Below are positions 1 to 51,070 of a stretch of 64,000 nt of DNA, piece by piece. Position 1 is the first letter of the stretch. Every line of letters starts with the position of its first letter. A model generated the notes under the pieces. That model did not search any database, was not told the origin of the DNA, and worked only from the letters and a program-made list of their open reading frames with translations. This stretch comes from Hyphomonadaceae bacterium (lineage in GTDB: Bacteria > Pseudomonadota > Alphaproteobacteria > Caulobacterales > Hyphomonadaceae). The DNA lies in contig CANJIL010000001.1 in assembly GCA_947474455.1 (NCBI GenBank), positions 186,001-250,000 of the forward strand, given 5' to 3'. The translations under genes were made by a program, and so were the position numbers.

Positions 1-184
1 CGAGTTGAAGACCAATTTCTGCATTATCATAGTCACTCACTCGATGGCCCAGGCGGCCCGCGTCTCGCAGCAGACCGCATTCTTCCACCTGGGTAAGCTG
101 ATCGAGTTCGGGCCGACCGAACAGGTTTTCACCAATCCGCGCGATACACGCACACAGGACTACATCACCGGCCGTTTCGGCTAG
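1..184 (+). CDS. pstB: PstB, phosphate ABC transporter ATPase (3' end only)
   Basis: C-terminal 60 codons of the ATP-binding subunit of the Pst phosphate importer, which energises inner-membrane uptake of phosphate by PstCA. The visible part includes the switch histidine region ([14 protein letters not shown]), then the PstB-typical tail [16 protein letters not shown] and the ending DYITGRFG followed by TAG. Reading is from base 2; the Walker motifs lie upstream of the window. phoU starts 38 nt downstream on the same strand, as expected for a pst-phoU-phoB cluster. Confidence 0.95.
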
Positions 185-190
185 TATTTC

Positions 191-210
191 TCGCCTGCAA
201 GCGCAGGCGA
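191..210. other. Perfect hairpin between pstB and phoU
   Basis: TCGCCTGC (191-198) and GCAGGCGA (203-210) form an 8-bp stem with a 4-nt loop, just after the pstB stop and directly before the phoU Shine-Dalgarno AAGGA (211-215). There is no T-run, so it is more likely an mRNA processing or stability element or a partial terminator than a full terminator. Function is inferred only. Confidence 0.45.
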
Positions 211-222
211 AAGGACAGGGAC

Positions 223-912
223 ATGACGGAACATACAGTCCGCTCGTTCTCGCAGGACCTTGAGGAGCTGACCGGCGACATCGCGCGCATGGGCGGGCTC
301 GCCGAGGACCTGCTGTCCGACGCCATCCAGGCCGTCGCCACACGCGATCTTGTACTGGCCGAAACCGTGGTCGTACGCGATCCGCAGATCGACAATCTGC
401 AGGTCGAGGTCGAGAAGAAAATCCTGCGCCTGCTGGCCCTCCGGCAACCGCTCGCCCGCGACCTGCGCCAGACGATTTCCGCGCTCAAGATCGCCTCCGA
501 GCTTGAGCGGATCGGAGACCTCGCCAAGAATATCGCTAAGCGCGCCAAGGTGCTCGACTCGATCGAGCCCACAGCCGCGCTGAAAGGCGTCGCCCGCATG
601 GGCCGTCTCGTGAACGCCCAGCTCAAGCGCGTGCTCGACGCCTATTCGGCGCTCGAGACCGACGCCGCCAACAAGGTGTGGTCGCGCGATGAGGAAGTGG
701 ACGAGCACTACCAGTCGCTCTTCCGCGAGGTCGTCACCTACATGATCGAAGACCCGCGCACCATCTCAGCGTGCGCGCATCTGCTGTTTGTCGCAAAGAA
801 TCTGGAACGGATCGGCGACCACTGCACCAACATTGCCGAGGAAGTACACTTCCTGGTGACCGGCGAACAACTCCCAACCGACAGGCCAAAAGTCGATGAC
901 CTCAACAGCTGA
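223..912 (+). CDS. phoU: PhoU, phosphate signalling complex protein
   Basis: A 229-residue all-helical PhoU, the usual length. PhoU links the PstSCAB transporter to the PhoR sensor kinase and represses the Pho regulon when phosphate is plentiful. Both PhoU repeats are visible, each with the metal-binding ExxRIGD signature: ELERIGDLAKN near residues 93-103 and LERIGDHCTN near residue 200. The ATG has AAGGA 7 nt upstream. The gene lies between pstB and phoB and overlaps phoB by 17 nt, suggesting translational coupling. No phoR is seen here; it is probably upstream of the pst genes. Confidence 0.97.
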   Translation: MTEHTVRSFSQDLEELTGDIARMGGLAEDLLSDAIQAVATRDLVLAETVVVRDPQIDNLQVEVEKKILRLLALRQPLARDLRQTISALKIASELERIGDLAKNIAKRAKVLDSIEPTAALKGVARMGRLVNAQLKRVLDAYSALETDAANKVWSRDEEVDEHYQSLFREVVTYMIEDPRTISACAHLLFVAKNLERIGDHCTNIAEEVHFLVTGEQLPTDRPKVDDLNS

Positions 913-46174: not shown

Positions 46175-46804
46175 GTGACCGAGCTCACGATCCAGCCGCT
46201 TGCCGGTGCAGACATTGATGGCCTGAACGAGGCCTATGCCATTTATCACGACGCGATCGAGCTGTCCGAGCAACGCACAGAAGCCGTGTTCAAGGCGCTG
46301 GCCGATCGGCCAGACTACCGGTTTCTCGTCGCCCTGCGTGGAACGGCGATGGCGGGTGTCGCAGTGTCATATATTCCGCGCGAGAGTGATTTCTGGCTGT
46401 TCGAATACGCGGCTGTTGCGAAGGCGGAGCGGGGCGCGGGGGTTGGCGCGCGGCTGTTCATGGCGAGTCGGCTGACGGCGGGCCTTGGCCGTGTGGGGCT
46501 GATCGAAGTGGATGTCGACACGGGAACAGCGGGGCAGGCGCAAAGGCTAGCCTTCTACGCGCGGTTAGGGTGCAGGCGATTGCGTGGGCTGGATTACCTC
46601 CTGCCGCTTGAAACGTTCGGTCAGCCACCGCCGATGTGCCTTCTGGCGCTTGCGCCGCCGGGTGTGGCGTTTATCGGTGTAGACACGATCGAACGCTGGT
46701 TGCGCGGCATCTACGCCGACGTCTATGACAGGCAGCTCGATGATCGCCGCTTAGCGCGCATGATCGATCCGTTGCCGGACGACGTCGCGCTCGAGGCGCT
46801 TTAG
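46175..46804 (+). CDS. GNAT-family N-acetyltransferase
   Basis: 209 aa from a GTG (TELTIQPLAGADIDG). Acetyl-CoA-binding motif A is visible as EYAAVAKAERGAGVGARLFMA near residue 80, following the beta strand FWLFEYAAV. The C-terminal half is longer than in minimal GNAT proteins (RRLRGLDYLLPLETFGQP and on), which may form a substrate lid. Substrate unknown. It converges with nudC; the two stop regions overlap by 4 bp. Confidence 0.82.
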   Translation: MTELTIQPLAGADIDGLNEAYAIYHDAIELSEQRTEAVFKALADRPDYRFLVALRGTAMAGVAVSYIPRESDFWLFEYAAVAKAERGAGVGARLFMASRLTAGLGRVGLIEVDVDTGTAGQAQRLAFYARLGCRRLRGLDYLLPLETFGQPPPMCLLALAPPGVAFIGVDTIERWLRGIYADVYDRQLDDRRLARMIDPLPDDVALEAL

Positions 46805-47769
46805 CTTCGCTCAAGCCAGGCCTTGATGACGTGGTGAGCGATGGCGAAGCTGGGCGGCGCTAAGGCTTCCGGGTTCGCTCCAGCCATCATTGCTGCGGTT
46901 TCTTCGCGCGTGAACCAGCGAGCGGCTTCGAGTTCCATGGCGTCGACCGTGATGTTTTCACCATCGGCTTCGAGAATGAGGCCGATCATCAGCGAGGACG
47001 GGAACGGCCAGGGCTGGCAGAACAGATAGTCGGCGCGGGTGGAGCAGCGGATGCCGGCCTCCTCGAAAATCTCCCGCGCGGCGGCCTGCTCGATGGTTTC
47101 TCCGGGTTCAACGAAGCCGGCAAGGCACGACCAGAAACCGGGACGCCAAGCGGCCTGCCGTCCGAGCAGGCATTTATCGGCCCGCACAGCGAGCATGATC
47201 GCGACAGGGTCGACGCGCGGAAAATGCTCCATTCCGCAGGCGGCGCATTTTGATTTCCAGCCGGCCTCCTCGATACGGGTGGGCGCGCCGCAGTTGGCGC
47301 AGAAACCGTGGCGACGGCGCCATTCGAAAAGCGCGCGGGCTGTCGCCGCCGCTCCGCCATCAAACGCGTTCATAGCGGAGGCCGCGACTCGGAAATCCTC
47401 GAACACGCCAAGACCGGCGATGGGGGACGCATCGACGCTGAACGATGATGGCAGTTCGAGTGCGTAGACGGGTGCGCCTTGCGCGGTCTGGCCGAGAAAC
47501 ACACGGGTTGCGTTCGGACAAAGTGTTCCGGCCTGCGCGCCAAGCCATTGCAGCGGTCGACCGGGCGCAAGGCGGGCACCGACTTGCGCAGGCGCGGAAG
47601 GCGGCCCCGATCCTTCGACGAGCGGCAGGCCTTCGCGCATTAGCAGGATCTGAACGTCAGGTGATGCGAAGGCGGCATCAAGCCATTGAGGATCCCGCCG
47701 ACGATGGGCGGCGCGTTCCAGCCCCGCCGGAACCAGCGGTATGGCGGCTGCGGCCTCGGACAATGGCAC
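46801..47769 (-). CDS. nudC: NAD(H) pyrophosphatase NudC
   Basis: 322 aa. NudC hydrolyses NADH/NAD to NMN and AMP, and removes NAD caps from RNA. The central zinc ribbon is CANCGAPT...CAACG (two CxxC pairs, near residue 175). The NUDIX box follows as GFVEPGETIEQAAAREIFEE then AGI, and the NADH-specific motif SQPWPFPSSLM appears as CQPWPFPSSLMIG. Length and order (N-domain, zinc, NUDIX) match E. coli NudC. It starts 3 bp after the stop of the TIR-domain gene on the same strand, which is a striking partnership. Confidence 0.95.
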   Translation of the reverse strand: MPLSEAAAAIPLVPAGLERAAHRRRDPQWLDAAFASPDVQILLMREGLPLVEGSGPPSAPAQVGARLAPGRPLQWLGAQAGTLCPNATRVFLGQTAQGAPVYALELPSSFSVDASPIAGLGVFEDFRVAASAMNAFDGGAAATARALFEWRRRHGFCANCGAPTRIEEAGWKSKCAACGMEHFPRVDPVAIMLAVRADKCLLGRQAAWRPGFWSCLAGFVEPGETIEQAAAREIFEEAGIRCSTRADYLFCQPWPFPSSLMIGLILEADGENITVDAMELEAARWFTREETAAMMAGANPEALAPPSFAIAHHVIKAWLERS

Positions 47770-47772
47770 GGC

Positions 47773-48876
47773 TCAGAGCTTCCTGATGTTCGACCGGAAG
47801 CTGCGTATCGCACGATGTCCGGCGAGGGCGCCATAGATGATGAAGGCGATGACGGAAAAACCGGCCCAAGCGATGCAGAACCACTTGAGGAAGTTCATGA
47901 AGTCCGCGCCTTCGAGATATCCCCTGTCTATCCCACTGAGCATCACGCCCGCGCCTGCGAGGAAGAACATGGCGGATGTGGCTAGGTATTTGAGGAAGGC
48001 GTCGAGGGCGGGCCGTCGGCGCAGATAATAGCGCACCGGGAATACGAGCGCGCCATAGAGGCCTGCGAAGGCGAGGCAGTACAAGGCGATGACGGCGACG
48101 CCGCGATCCGACGTATCGGGCGTATATTGGCCGGCTGTGGTGATGAGCTGCCAAGCCGCGATGGCTATCCAGCCGGGCACGAGAAAAAGCCAGTCGATAT
48201 AGCGGAAGGGCGGAATGTCCGGCAATTTCCCGATCGGCTTTCCTCCGGAGCCGGCCCGGCCAACATAATCCTTCGTTTTGGTCGACGCTGTGCGGCCCGG
48301 ATCGACAGCTTCGTGGATTAGCTCGCCAATCGCATCGTCGAGCTTCTGTTCTTTGTCCTTGAGCGTCTGTTCGCGCGCCGGCGCTGCCGCCTGGGGCGGC
48401 GGTGCGGCCAACTTCTTCGATTTCAGGACTTCGTCAGTACGCCCGCTGGCGAGACCGCCCTCCGACTTGCCGGCGAGCCTGGCGAGGTGTTCGACCAACT
48501 CATCGATATGCGCCATCGGATCGGGGAAGACCTGGATCCAGTTGCGGTCGGCGAGTTCATAGAGATAGGCGCCGCGCGGCTGGGTGTTCTCGATCAGGAT
48601 CGGAACGACCGGTTTGGCCAGGGAGTCGGCGACCGCAAGTTCCTTCTTCAGCTGGCGGGAGGAGTTGCACTCCTCCGAGAAGAAGATCGCCAGCATGTCC
48701 GAATTGGTGAGGGCTTCGACGATGGTTTCGCGCCAGTCGGCGCCGCCTTCGATATCGGCGTCGTACCAGACGCGAACGCCGCGCGCCTCAAGCCGGCGCA
48801 CCACCGATGCGACCAGTTCACGGTCCGCCCGCCGGTAGCTGACGAAGATCTCGTACTTATTCGCTGTCGCAGCCAT
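47773..48876 (-). CDS. TIR-domain protein with C-terminal membrane segments
   Basis: 367 aa from the ATG at 48876. Residues 7-130 form a TIR domain: box 1 YEIFVSYRRAD, WYDADIEGGADWRETI, then FFSEECNSSRQLKKEL, where Glu79 matches the catalytic Glu of NAD-cleaving TIR proteins. A Pro/Ala-rich linker (130-220) is followed by four predicted membrane helices (about 225-245, 262-285, 303-322, 338-360). TIR domains often hydrolyse NAD in immune or cell-death systems or act as scaffolds; here the anchor places it at the inner membrane. nudC follows after 3 bp. A five-residue longer start is possible. Confidence 0.88.
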   Translation of the reverse strand: MAATANKYEIFVSYRRADRELVASVVRRLEARGVRVWYDADIEGGADWRETIVEALTNSDMLAIFFSEECNSSRQLKKELAVADSLAKPVVPILIENTQPRGAYLYELADRNWIQVFPDPMAHIDELVEHLARLAGKSEGGLASGRTDEVLKSKKLAAPPPQAAAPAREQTLKDKEQKLDDAIGELIHEAVDPGRTASTKTKDYVGRAGSGGKPIGKLPDIPPFRYIDWLFLVPGWIAIAAWQLITTAGQYTPDTSDRGVAVIALYCLAFAGLYGALVFPVRYYLRRRPALDAFLKYLATSAMFFLAGAGVMLSGIDRGYLEGADFMNFLKWFCIAWAGFSVIAFIIYGALAGHRAIRSFRSNIRKL

Positions 48877-49015: not shown

Positions 49016-49116
49016 CAGTGCAGGTTGGTTGCGGACGAGCGGTTCGCCAACTCGGTCAGGTCCGGAAGGAAGCAGCCGTAACGAGTTTAGCTCGGGTCGC
49101 GACCAGCCTGCGCCCT
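49016..49116 (+). ncRNA. ffs: Bacterial SRP RNA (4.5S RNA)
   Basis: Small signal-recognition-particle RNA, partner of Ffh for co-translational membrane targeting. The universally conserved tip is present as GGTCAGGTCCGGAAGGAAGC (49054-49073), containing the GGAA tetraloop and the Ffh-binding symmetric loop (AGCAGCC). The 5' arm GTGCAGGTTGGTTGCG (49018-49033) pairs fully with the 3' arm CGCGACCAGCCTGCGC (49098-49113), including G-U pairs. Placement directly before dnaX is common in bacteria. Ends are approximate. Confidence 0.95.
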
Positions 49117-49192: not shown

Positions 49193-51070
49193 ATGGCCTC
49201 TAAAAAGCCCCCGAAACCCCCGTCCGACGGACCGGAAGGCGATGTTGCGGAACCCCGCGACACGATGACCGCGTCGATGTTCGCGGATGATGGTCCGCTG
49301 GGCCCGCCAGCCTATCAGGTGTTAGCTCGCAAATATCGGCCGACGCGGTTCGAGGATCTGGTCGGCCAGGAAGCCATGGTCCGGACGCTTACCAATGCGT
49401 TCAGGACTGGGCGCATAGCACATGCTTTCATGCTGACCGGCGTGCGCGGCGTGGGAAAGACCACGACGGCGCGGTTGCTGGCGCGCGCATTGAATTACCG
49501 AACGAGAGATTGGGAATCGAACACCGAGGGCAAAACTCTCGTCGACCACCCTTTCATGAATCTTGACCCCCCTGGAGAGCACTGCGCCTCGATCATGGAG
49601 TCGCGTCATCCTGATGTGCTGGAGCTCGACGCGGCGTCGCACACGGGCGTGTCCGACATGCGCGACCTGCTGGACGGCGCGCGCTATGCGCCGGTGAGCG
49701 CGCGCTACAAGATCTACATCATCGACGAAGTTCACATGCTGTCGACGGCGGCATTCAATGCGCTCCTGAAGACGCTGGAAGAACCGCCGCCGCATGTGAA
49801 GTTCATCTTTGCCACCACTGAAATCCGCAAAGTGCCGGTGACGGTGCTTTCGCGGTGTCAGCGTTTCAACCTGCAGCGCTTCTCAACCGAGGCCCTGACA
49901 GAGCATCTAGCGAACATCTGCAAGGCGGAAGGCGCGAAGGTTGCGCCCGAGGCGCTCGCGCTGATCGCGCGGGCCGCGGAAGGATCGGCGCGCGATGCGC
50001 TGTCGATCCTGGATCAGGCGATCGTGCAGGGCGACGGGAAAGAGGCCAGCGTCGAGCAGGTGCGCGACATGCTCGGCCTGGCGGACCGGTCGCGCGTGCT
50101 GGACCTGATGGAAAAGATCATCGCTGCTGACCATCAGGCGGCATTGACCGAAGCAGCGGCCCTGCTCGAGCAGGGCGCCGATGCGCCGGTGCTGATCAAG
50201 GATCTGATGGACAGCGTGGTCGAAATCTCGCGCGCCCAGGCGCTCAAGGATGGTTATGCCTTCGTCGGCCCGGCCGACTGGGGCAAGCGAACGAAAGCCA
50301 TGGCGGCGCAGCTTTCACCTGCGCAGTCGGCGCGAATGTGGCGATTGCTCCTGCAAGGATTCGAGGATTGCGCGCGGGCGCCGGATCCGTCGGCGGCCGC
50401 GCAGATGGTCGTGTTGAGGATGGCCGCTGCCGCGAGCCTGCCCTCGCCGGAAGACGCCATGCAACTCATGGCGGGTGGGGCCGCTGTGCCGACCCCAAAG
50501 TCCCGACCTGAGCGCGAGCCTGTGCGAGCCGAAGCGCCTACGGCGTCAGCGACCGTGGCGCAAGACGATCATCACCACCCCGTCGTCCGCATGTCGTCGC
50601 TGCACGAGATCATCGCAGAGCTCGAAGTGCGGCGGGAAGCCTCGCTGAAATATGAGATCGAGCGTTTCGTCCGGCCGGCCGAAATCGACTTCGGACACTT
50701 CCGTTATTCGGCGGCGCCGAACACGCCATCGAACCTGTCGCAGAAGATCAAGGACTGGCTGGAAAGCGTCAGCGGCGTCGAGTGGGAAGTGTTGCAGTCC
50801 GATGACGGCGGGCCAGAGAGCACCAGCGAGAAACGCAAGCGCAGGGGCCGCGAGAAGTTGCAGGCCGCGCAAGCGCATCCGCGCATCGCCGAGGCTCTGC
50901 GGCTGTTTCCCGGCGCGCGCGTGCTGCGCGTCGACGACCCAGATGCACAGGAAGAAATGGACGATGCACCCGAGCCGGCGCGGGCAAATATCATCCATGT
51001 CGATTTCGGCCATCGCGAGAGGGTCGAAGGAATCGTACCTGATCTCGAAGAGCGCGAGGACGACGAATGA
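49193..51070 (+). CDS. dnaX: DNA polymerase III subunits gamma/tau DnaX
   Basis: 625 aa from the ATG at 49193 (MASKKPPKPPSDGP), with AGGGA 5 nt upstream. The clamp-loader ATPase: Walker A TGVRGVGKTTTARLLARAL, Walker B IIDEVHMLS, SRC arginine finger VTVLSRCQRFNLQ, and domain III RDALSILDQAI. The zinc module is atypical: only one cysteine (GEHCASIMESRHPDV) stands where four are usual. A C-terminal region from about 430 on is tau-type. It overlaps the ybaB gene by 4 bp (ATGA), a translationally coupled pair. Confidence 0.96.
   Translation: MASKKPPKPPSDGPEGDVAEPRDTMTASMFADDGPLGPPAYQVLARKYRPTRFEDLVGQEAMVRTLTNAFRTGRIAHAFMLTGVRGVGKTTTARLLARALNYRTRDWESNTEGKTLVDHPFMNLDPPGEHCASIMESRHPDVLELDAASHTGVSDMRDLLDGARYAPVSARYKIYIIDEVHMLSTAAFNALLKTLEEPPPHVKFIFATTEIRKVPVTVLSRCQRFNLQRFSTEALTEHLANICKAEGAKVAPEALALIARAAEGSARDALSILDQAIVQGDGKEASVEQVRDMLGLADRSRVLDLMEKIIAADHQAALTEAAALLEQGADAPVLIKDLMDSVVEISRAQALKDGYAFVGPADWGKRTKAMAAQLSPAQSARMWRLLLQGFEDCARAPDPSAAAQMVVLRMAAAASLPSPEDAMQLMAGGAAVPTPKSRPEREPVRAEAPTASATVAQDDHHHPVVRMSSLHEIIAELEVRREASLKYEIERFVRPAEIDFGHFRYSAAPNTPSNLSQKIKDWLESVSGVEWEVLQSDDGGPESTSEKRKRRGREKLQAAQAHPRIAEALRLFPGARVLRVDDPDAQEEMDDAPEPARANIIHVDFGHRERVEGIVPDLEEREDDE

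Follow-up and report, generated by a model that had tools for sequence, protein, structure and literature searches.

A conserved gene pair of a TIR-domain membrane protein and NudC in Hyphomonadaceae, with a plausible link through NAD chemistry

Introduction

According to the available text of PMC10937652, the bacterial TIR proteins AbTir, BtpA and PdTir carry out a Glu-dependent release of nicotinamide from NAD-RNA, whereas four other bacterial TIR proteins tested do not. There, NudC produced 5'-phosphate RNA in vitro from ADPR-RNA as well as from the product of AbTir, and joint work of TIR proteins and NudC was suggested, its occurrence in cells being left open (PMC10937652). In AbTir, the W204A replacement lowered both NADase and decapping activities, this Trp being important for activity and cyclization, and the Trp-to-Ala mutant gave an additional product with the mobility of linear ADPR-RNA; the activity of TIR proteins on RNA was also linked to positive charge near the site (PMC10937652). 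With respect to the WxxxE motif, the Trp is essential in AbTir, whereas the matching W240 of TcpC is dispensable for NADase activity, as stated in the available part of PMC11374754. TIR domains are also widespread in antiviral conflict systems, as the available part of PMC9503650 describes. In Thoeris, a TIR protein acting on NAD (ThsB) and an effector (ThsA) form a two-gene unit. In TIR-STING and other TIR effectors, the TIR domain is joined to further modules.

Here, we have analyzed a stretch of 64,000 nucleotides from a Hyphomonadaceae bacterium (hereafter, the window), for which an initial annotation had described a TIR-domain membrane protein encoded just upstream of nudC and proposed that the two are functionally linked, possibly as an NAD-depleting defence. 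No report of a TIR-NudC operon could be found in our literature searches.

Results and discussion

Organization of the locus

The features of the locus are as follows.

46175..46804, plus strand: GNAT acetyltransferase gene, convergent with nudC, whose end it overlaps tail to tail; outside the unit
46801..47769, minus strand: nudC, encoding an NAD(+) diphosphatase of NudC type (322 aa; GTG start; Pfam and NCBIfam)
47773..48876, minus strand: gene of the TIR-linker-4TM protein (367 aa; open reading frame from ATG to TGA; Pfam TIR_2 and AlphaFold model)
47777..47802, minus strand: 3' end of the TIR gene, possible hairpin AGCUUCC/GGAAGCU over the AGGAAG ahead of nudC (z only -1.04 in the window)
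47779..48201, minus strand: four predicted membrane helices (residues 226-366; AlphaFold), ending in RAIRSFRSNIRKL
48202..48465, minus strand: linker, residues 138-225 (AlphaFold, mostly pLDDT below 50)
48466..48855, minus strand: TIR domain, residues 8-137 (Pfam, AlphaFold, Foldseek and VIA-align)
48640..48642, minus strand: codon of Glu79, the predicted catalytic residue in RQLKKEL, conserved without exception in the 13 full-length relatives
48652..48654, minus strand: codon of Gln75, at the site (E-4) of the WxxxE Trp; all 13 full-length proteins have Gln here
49020..49114, plus strand: small bacterial SRP RNA, in divergent orientation to the TIR gene
49211..51070, plus strand: dnaX, a divergent neighbor (start chosen within its open reading frame)

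Both genes of the pair lie on the minus strand, and the coordinates of their open reading frames place the TIR stop 3 bp ahead of the nudC start, exactly as initially annotated. The identity of NudC was likewise borne out: it contains the Pfam domains NUDIX, Zn_ribbon_NUD and NUDIX-like, and the NCBIfam model of NAD(+) diphosphatase (PRK00241) scored 189.4 bits against a cut-off of 158. It also has a CQPWPFPSS stretch, which we take to resemble the NudC motif. One NudC match was present in the genome of the window, as was one Zn-ribbon match (150 of 190 candidates scored). TIR_2 could be identified at seven places in the same genome, and two of these matches (L004 and L006, on C57 and C43) contain an in-frame TAG. 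All neighbors scanned (pheA, an outer-membrane protein gene, the GNAT gene, the SRP RNA and dnaX) were housekeeping or ordinary genes. The nearest named records to the TIR protein came from Hyphomonadaceae metagenome-assembled genomes (80% and 75% identity). It should be noted that the GNAT gene was present in 12 of the 15 g1 loci and was not found in G093, G094 and G101.

The TIR domain and the membrane part

Pfam TIR_2 matched residues 10-127 of the protein (E 1.8e-22), and an AlphaFold model built on an alignment of 13 relatives consisted of a TIR fold, a low-confidence linker (about residues 140-222) and four long helices (pLDDT 71, pTM 0.42). A single-sequence search of the PDB with the TIR protein gave no TIR match at E 0.001, whereas profile and fold searches did. 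AbTir was the best solved chain both by profile (8e-07; the match spans profile positions 2-64, with the catalytic Glu outside this range) and by Foldseek (4.9e-06, TMt 0.82). In VIA-align, where the list for the whole model was taken up by the TIR part, AbTir reached Z 17.0 over 126 residues with an rmsd of 1.9, in a tie with a Hydra TIR. The initial annotation had also named E79 in RQLKKEL as the catalytic residue of this domain, and the assignment holds as a prediction: E79 is the predicted catalytic Glu of helix C, and an offset of 129, which would place it on E208 of AbTir, is consistent with the aligned ranges (7..136 and 134..267).

We further analyzed this site in the full-length set, which comprised 13 proteins from 12 genomes and included nine at nudC. 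Glu79 and the adjacent Lys77 and Lys78 were invariant in all 13, and Glu79 is under constraint in these forms. The Trp that the WxxxE motif of TIR NAD glycohydrolases calls for is absent, all 13 proteins having Gln75 in its place.

The four membrane helices claimed for the protein were recovered by AlphaFold at residues 226-246, 256-285, 290-317 and 323-366, and three of them were above the threshold of a simple hydropathy scan. When the four-helix part was modeled alone, confidence was higher (pLDDT 88, pTM 0.74), and the TIR protein is predicted to be tethered to the membrane through this part. No PDB match to it was found at E 0.001, which is not in itself proof of a new fold, and no consistent Pfam family could be assigned to it; the protein as a whole had no recognized ligand-sensing domain.

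Compared with described systems, the locus shows both similarities and differences. It shares with AbTir and the other deNAMing TIR proteins a TIR domain with a catalytic Glu (predicted here) and the company of NudC, which follows TIR in the in vitro decapping of NAD-RNA. Those proteins differ in being described, in the available text, as coiled-coil plus TIR domains with no membrane helices named, as well as in the Trp that is Gln75 here; that text also mentions no nudC operon (PMC10937652). The NudC protein itself resembles the NAD(+) diphosphatases of PRK00241 in its Zn ribbon, its Nudix domain and a score above the curated cut-off, and differs in lying behind a TIR gene with which it is probably translated. 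The layout resembles Thoeris in being a two-gene unit with a TIR protein; however, the second gene is nudC, and no ThsA-type effector was present among the neighbors scanned. The joining of TIR to another module is reminiscent of TIR-STING-type effectors, a difference being that no ligand-sensing domain was recognized here. Searches with defence models gave partial matches of the TIR domain alone in PADLOC (best 36.7 bits; ThsB 20.4 bits) and no full-length defence match. The NCBIfam model ThcB4, which has a cut-off of 220 bits, scored 24.2 bits, and Pfam ThsB_TIR matched 3 of the 15 members of the mixed alignment of long and short forms.

Distribution and evolutionary history of the pair

NudC was identified at E 1e-25 in 102 of the 105 genomes of the family to which the window belongs, and all 102 loci were read (the window and 101 stretches). 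Of these 102 genomes, 17, all from four genera, had a TIR gene at nudC. Thus, the pair is not a quirk of one assembly, and the possibility raised with the initial annotation, that the adjacency is confined to this strain, does not hold. The 17 cases consist of 15 of the 101 stretches, called with a TIR profile iterated from relatives, the window, and G103, in which a contig end inside the gene leaves the membrane part alone. This number is a lower bound, since some stretches are cut by contig ends. The other 85 genomes, with no TIR gene found at nudC, include G100, in which the contig ends inside nudC and the presence of TIR cannot be judged. The profile recovered seven of seven TIR loci in the window's own genome, all of which were part of its iteration set. 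Outside the family, none of 43 nudC loci had a TIR gene; this is a small sample, derived from 120 genomes of the phylum, 45 of which had NudC, minus two belonging to the family. With regard to nudC itself, an in-frame TAG in G035 (L056) and a match in two pieces in G015 (L134) may each reflect sequence error or decay.

On a wider scale, searches with the TIR-4TM profile (E 1e-20, at most five candidates scored per genome) gave matches spanning the whole profile in the window's family only among 398 genomes of the order, and in the window itself only among 385 genomes of the class, both sets being samples of larger groups. Proteins of the same kind could also be identified in G088, G090 and G021, on a contig other than that of nudC, and no NAD-linked neighbors of these genes were recognized when the lists of open reading frames were inspected by eye. 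In G090 (L057:3335-5559), two tandem TIR-4TM genes lie away from nudC, near TauD-like and enoyl-CoA-hydratase-like genes as judged by eye. In another family of the class, G530 (L118) and G633 (L119) each have three tandem TIR genes (open frames of 284-327 codons), which match the TIR part alone and have nudC on another contig.

In a FastTree phylogeny of NudC, DnaX, PheA and YbaB from 28 genomes, rooted at the midpoint, all 17 genomes with TIR at nudC fell in a single clade that comprises four genera (support 1.0). G094 and G101, in which TIR is absent and nudC faces dnaX directly, are nested inside this clade beside G093 (0.82). The gene dnaX was found in 31 of 101 nudC stretches of the family and in 12 of 43 outside it, which suggests that the nudC-dnaX neighborhood is old and that TIR probably entered it by insertion. 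The simplest reading of this tree would be a single insertion of TIR beside the older neighborhood, followed by one loss in G094/G101, and the pair looks to have been vertically inherited. It should be noted that the tree of NudC alone was less resolved, with G094/G101 joining G087, and g4 was not part of the clade of g1+g6+g9 (100/99). The TIR tree joined the g4 proteins to the ones found away from nudC in G088, G090 and G021 (100/100), so transfer or a second insertion event may have given rise to the g4 TIR genes.

Short forms and selection

Seven g1 genomes had a short form of the TIR protein, which lacks helices one to three and some of helix four, yet the gene still lies before nudC. They form one clade in the species tree (1.0, G100 included), and their TIR proteins also grouped together (94/98). 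Position 79 is replaced in four of the seven, by Leu (G092), Met (G095) and Gln (G096 and G102), and Glu79 is retained in G091, G097 and G104; the case of G092 rests on the alignment, since a Glu is found there one position earlier. At least two replacements could be placed on the tree, all inside the short clade. The loss of Glu79 from four of seven short forms that stay ahead of nudC shows that part of the clade with TIR at nudC can do without this residue.

TIR_2 was recognized in all 15 members of the mixed alignment of long and short forms, and 11 residues (R16, D18, G33, D39, S67, A83, D84, E96, P100, G102 and W113) were invariant across it. For the short pairs G092/G095, G096/G102 and G097/G104, dN/dS of TIR was 0.20-0.37 versus 0.03-0.13 for NudC; thus, short TIR genes are not free pseudogenes. 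In the long pair G000/G098 the values were close (0.16 for TIR and 0.14 for NudC), and in G000/G099 they were 0.43 and 0.14. Overall, dN/dS of TIR exceeded that of NudC in all eight genome pairs compared (up to 0.44 versus 0.13).

Spacing of the pair

Based on start codons read from the sequence, 14 of the 17 pairs were tight. Six of them (G092, G095, G096, G097, G102 and G104) overlap by one base in TAGTG, and six others (the window, G087, G093, G098, G099 and G103) have a gap of 1-6 bp, so that 12 of 14 tight pairs, from three genera, have such minimal spacing. The gap is wider in G078 (25 bp) and G091 (up to 99 bp). In three g4 genomes, the distance between the TIR gene at the locus and the nudC match is 253, 263 and 1209 bp, and the largest gap (G034) contains a convergent gene. 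The usual tightness suggests that TIR and nudC are probably translationally coupled, and co-transcription would be expected for such an arrangement.

Possible roles of the TIR-nudC pair

The conserved tight pair and the constrained Glu make a functional link between TIR and NudC through NAD chemistry plausible. We tentatively favor, at somewhat less than even probability, a reading in which a catalytic TIR feeds NudC, with RNA or free NAD as the substrate. A membrane-anchored TIR enzyme would break the nicotinamide-ribose bond of NAD, either free or as an RNA 5' cap, and the NudC made with it would hydrolyze the ADP-ribose-type product so formed at its pyrophosphate. Both NAD cleavage by TIR and the action of NudC on its product are steps that we infer. 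On the RNA route, NAD-RNA would be converted to (cyclic) ADPR-RNA and then to 5'-phosphate RNA; with free NAD, ADPR would be formed and split into AMP and ribose phosphate, NudC being the clearing arm. The pair fits, without proving, the two-step scheme of NAD-RNA decapping set out in the available text of PMC10937652, and a tight conserved TIR-nudC pair is what joint decapping would predict. Thus, the part of the initial proposal that links the two proteins gained support from the conserved pair, the constrained Glu and this scheme, whereas the replacement of Glu79 in four of the seven short forms speaks against it. The invariant Lys77 and Lys78 next to the Glu also count in favor of a catalytic TIR that feeds NudC, given the link drawn between positive charge and RNA activity (PMC10937652), as do AbTir being the closest solved chain and the similar dN/dS of the two genes in G000/G098. 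Further points against it are Gln75 in place of the WxxxE Trp (although this Trp is dispensable in TcpC), the 85 of 102 family genomes with no TIR found at nudC, the TIR-4TM proteins of G088, G090 and G021 encoded on other contigs, the convergent gene that parts the two in G034, the higher dN/dS of TIR in all eight genome pairs and the single-sequence PDB search with no TIR match.

A more specific version, which we consider unlikely, is that the pair is a dedicated membrane-tethered unit for NAD-cap removal: TIR would make an ADPR-type cap, perhaps a linear one because the Trp tied to cyclization in AbTir is Gln here, and co-translated NudC would convert it to 5'-phosphate RNA for decay, TIR having become a non-catalytic partner in a sub-branch. 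If so, NudC would become specific for NAD caps, which on its own it is not. More generally, a conserved TIR-nudC pair with no recognized defence gene alongside is a genomic hint of joint use in one lineage, and such use would suggest that a bacterial TIR protein can have a housekeeping role. The pair also offers a two-gene system for testing the decapping order of PMC10937652, as its available text gives it, in cells, and the natural series of full-length forms, short forms with Glu and short forms without it could separate catalytic from non-catalytic roles.

Several other explanations have to be weighed against a catalytic TIR that feeds NudC. The TIR protein might mainly act at the membrane as an adaptor or sensor that positions or controls NudC, with TIR serving as an interaction fold and enzyme activity being secondary or lost. 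The short forms lend this some weight, since they keep TIR_2, the 11 invariant residues and a dN/dS of 0.20-0.37 while position 79 has become L, M, Q and Q in four of seven; however, a pure scaffold is hard to square with Glu79 and Lys77/78 being invariant in all 13 full-length forms, and we regard this explanation as somewhat unlikely. That the two genes are chance neighbors held by vertical descent, with no shared function, seems distinctly unlikely. A single insertion into an old nudC-dnaX neighborhood would account for the spread, and TIR_2 occurs at seven places in the genome; minimal spacing in 12 of 14 tight pairs of three genera and purifying selection on TIR argue otherwise. The defence role initially proposed found no support and is unlikely. 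In its abortive-infection form, a phage trigger would activate the membrane TIR and NAD would fall, with NudC limiting or feeding TIR. The wide occurrence of TIR domains in antiviral conflict systems (PMC9503650, available part), the partial PADLOC matches and the ThsB_TIR matches are in its favor, but the neighbors are ordinary, inheritance looks vertical and defence models match part of the TIR domain only, which makes this form very improbable.

A further explanation is a link mostly in cis, by which nudC would have come to depend on translation of the inserted TIR gene (through coupling or a hairpin site), making loss of the TIR gene difficult. The last TIR codons in the window, AGG AAG CTC, hold the likely ribosome site of nudC (AGGAAG), which was paired in 9 of 12 g1 loci (minimum-energy fold, read by eye), and conservation of the TIR 3' end persists where the remainder of the gene has diverged; the TAGTG overlaps in six pairs point in the same direction. 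However, longer junction folds were within 1.6 s.d. of shuffles in seven of eight cases, TIR-4TM proteins away from nudC likewise retain the R-x-F end, and G094 and G101 keep nudC without a TIR gene. Protein constraint may account for the junction sequence instead of a hairpin. We therefore treat the hairpin over the nudC ribosome site as a minor lead, and dependence in cis as quite unlikely to explain the pair.

With regard to codon use near the junction, the Ile codon of RAIRSF (47806-47808 in the window, minus strand) was the uncommon ATA in 10 of 12 g1 TIR genes. Elsewhere in the 14 TIR genes compared, ATA accounted for 15 of 209 Ile codons.
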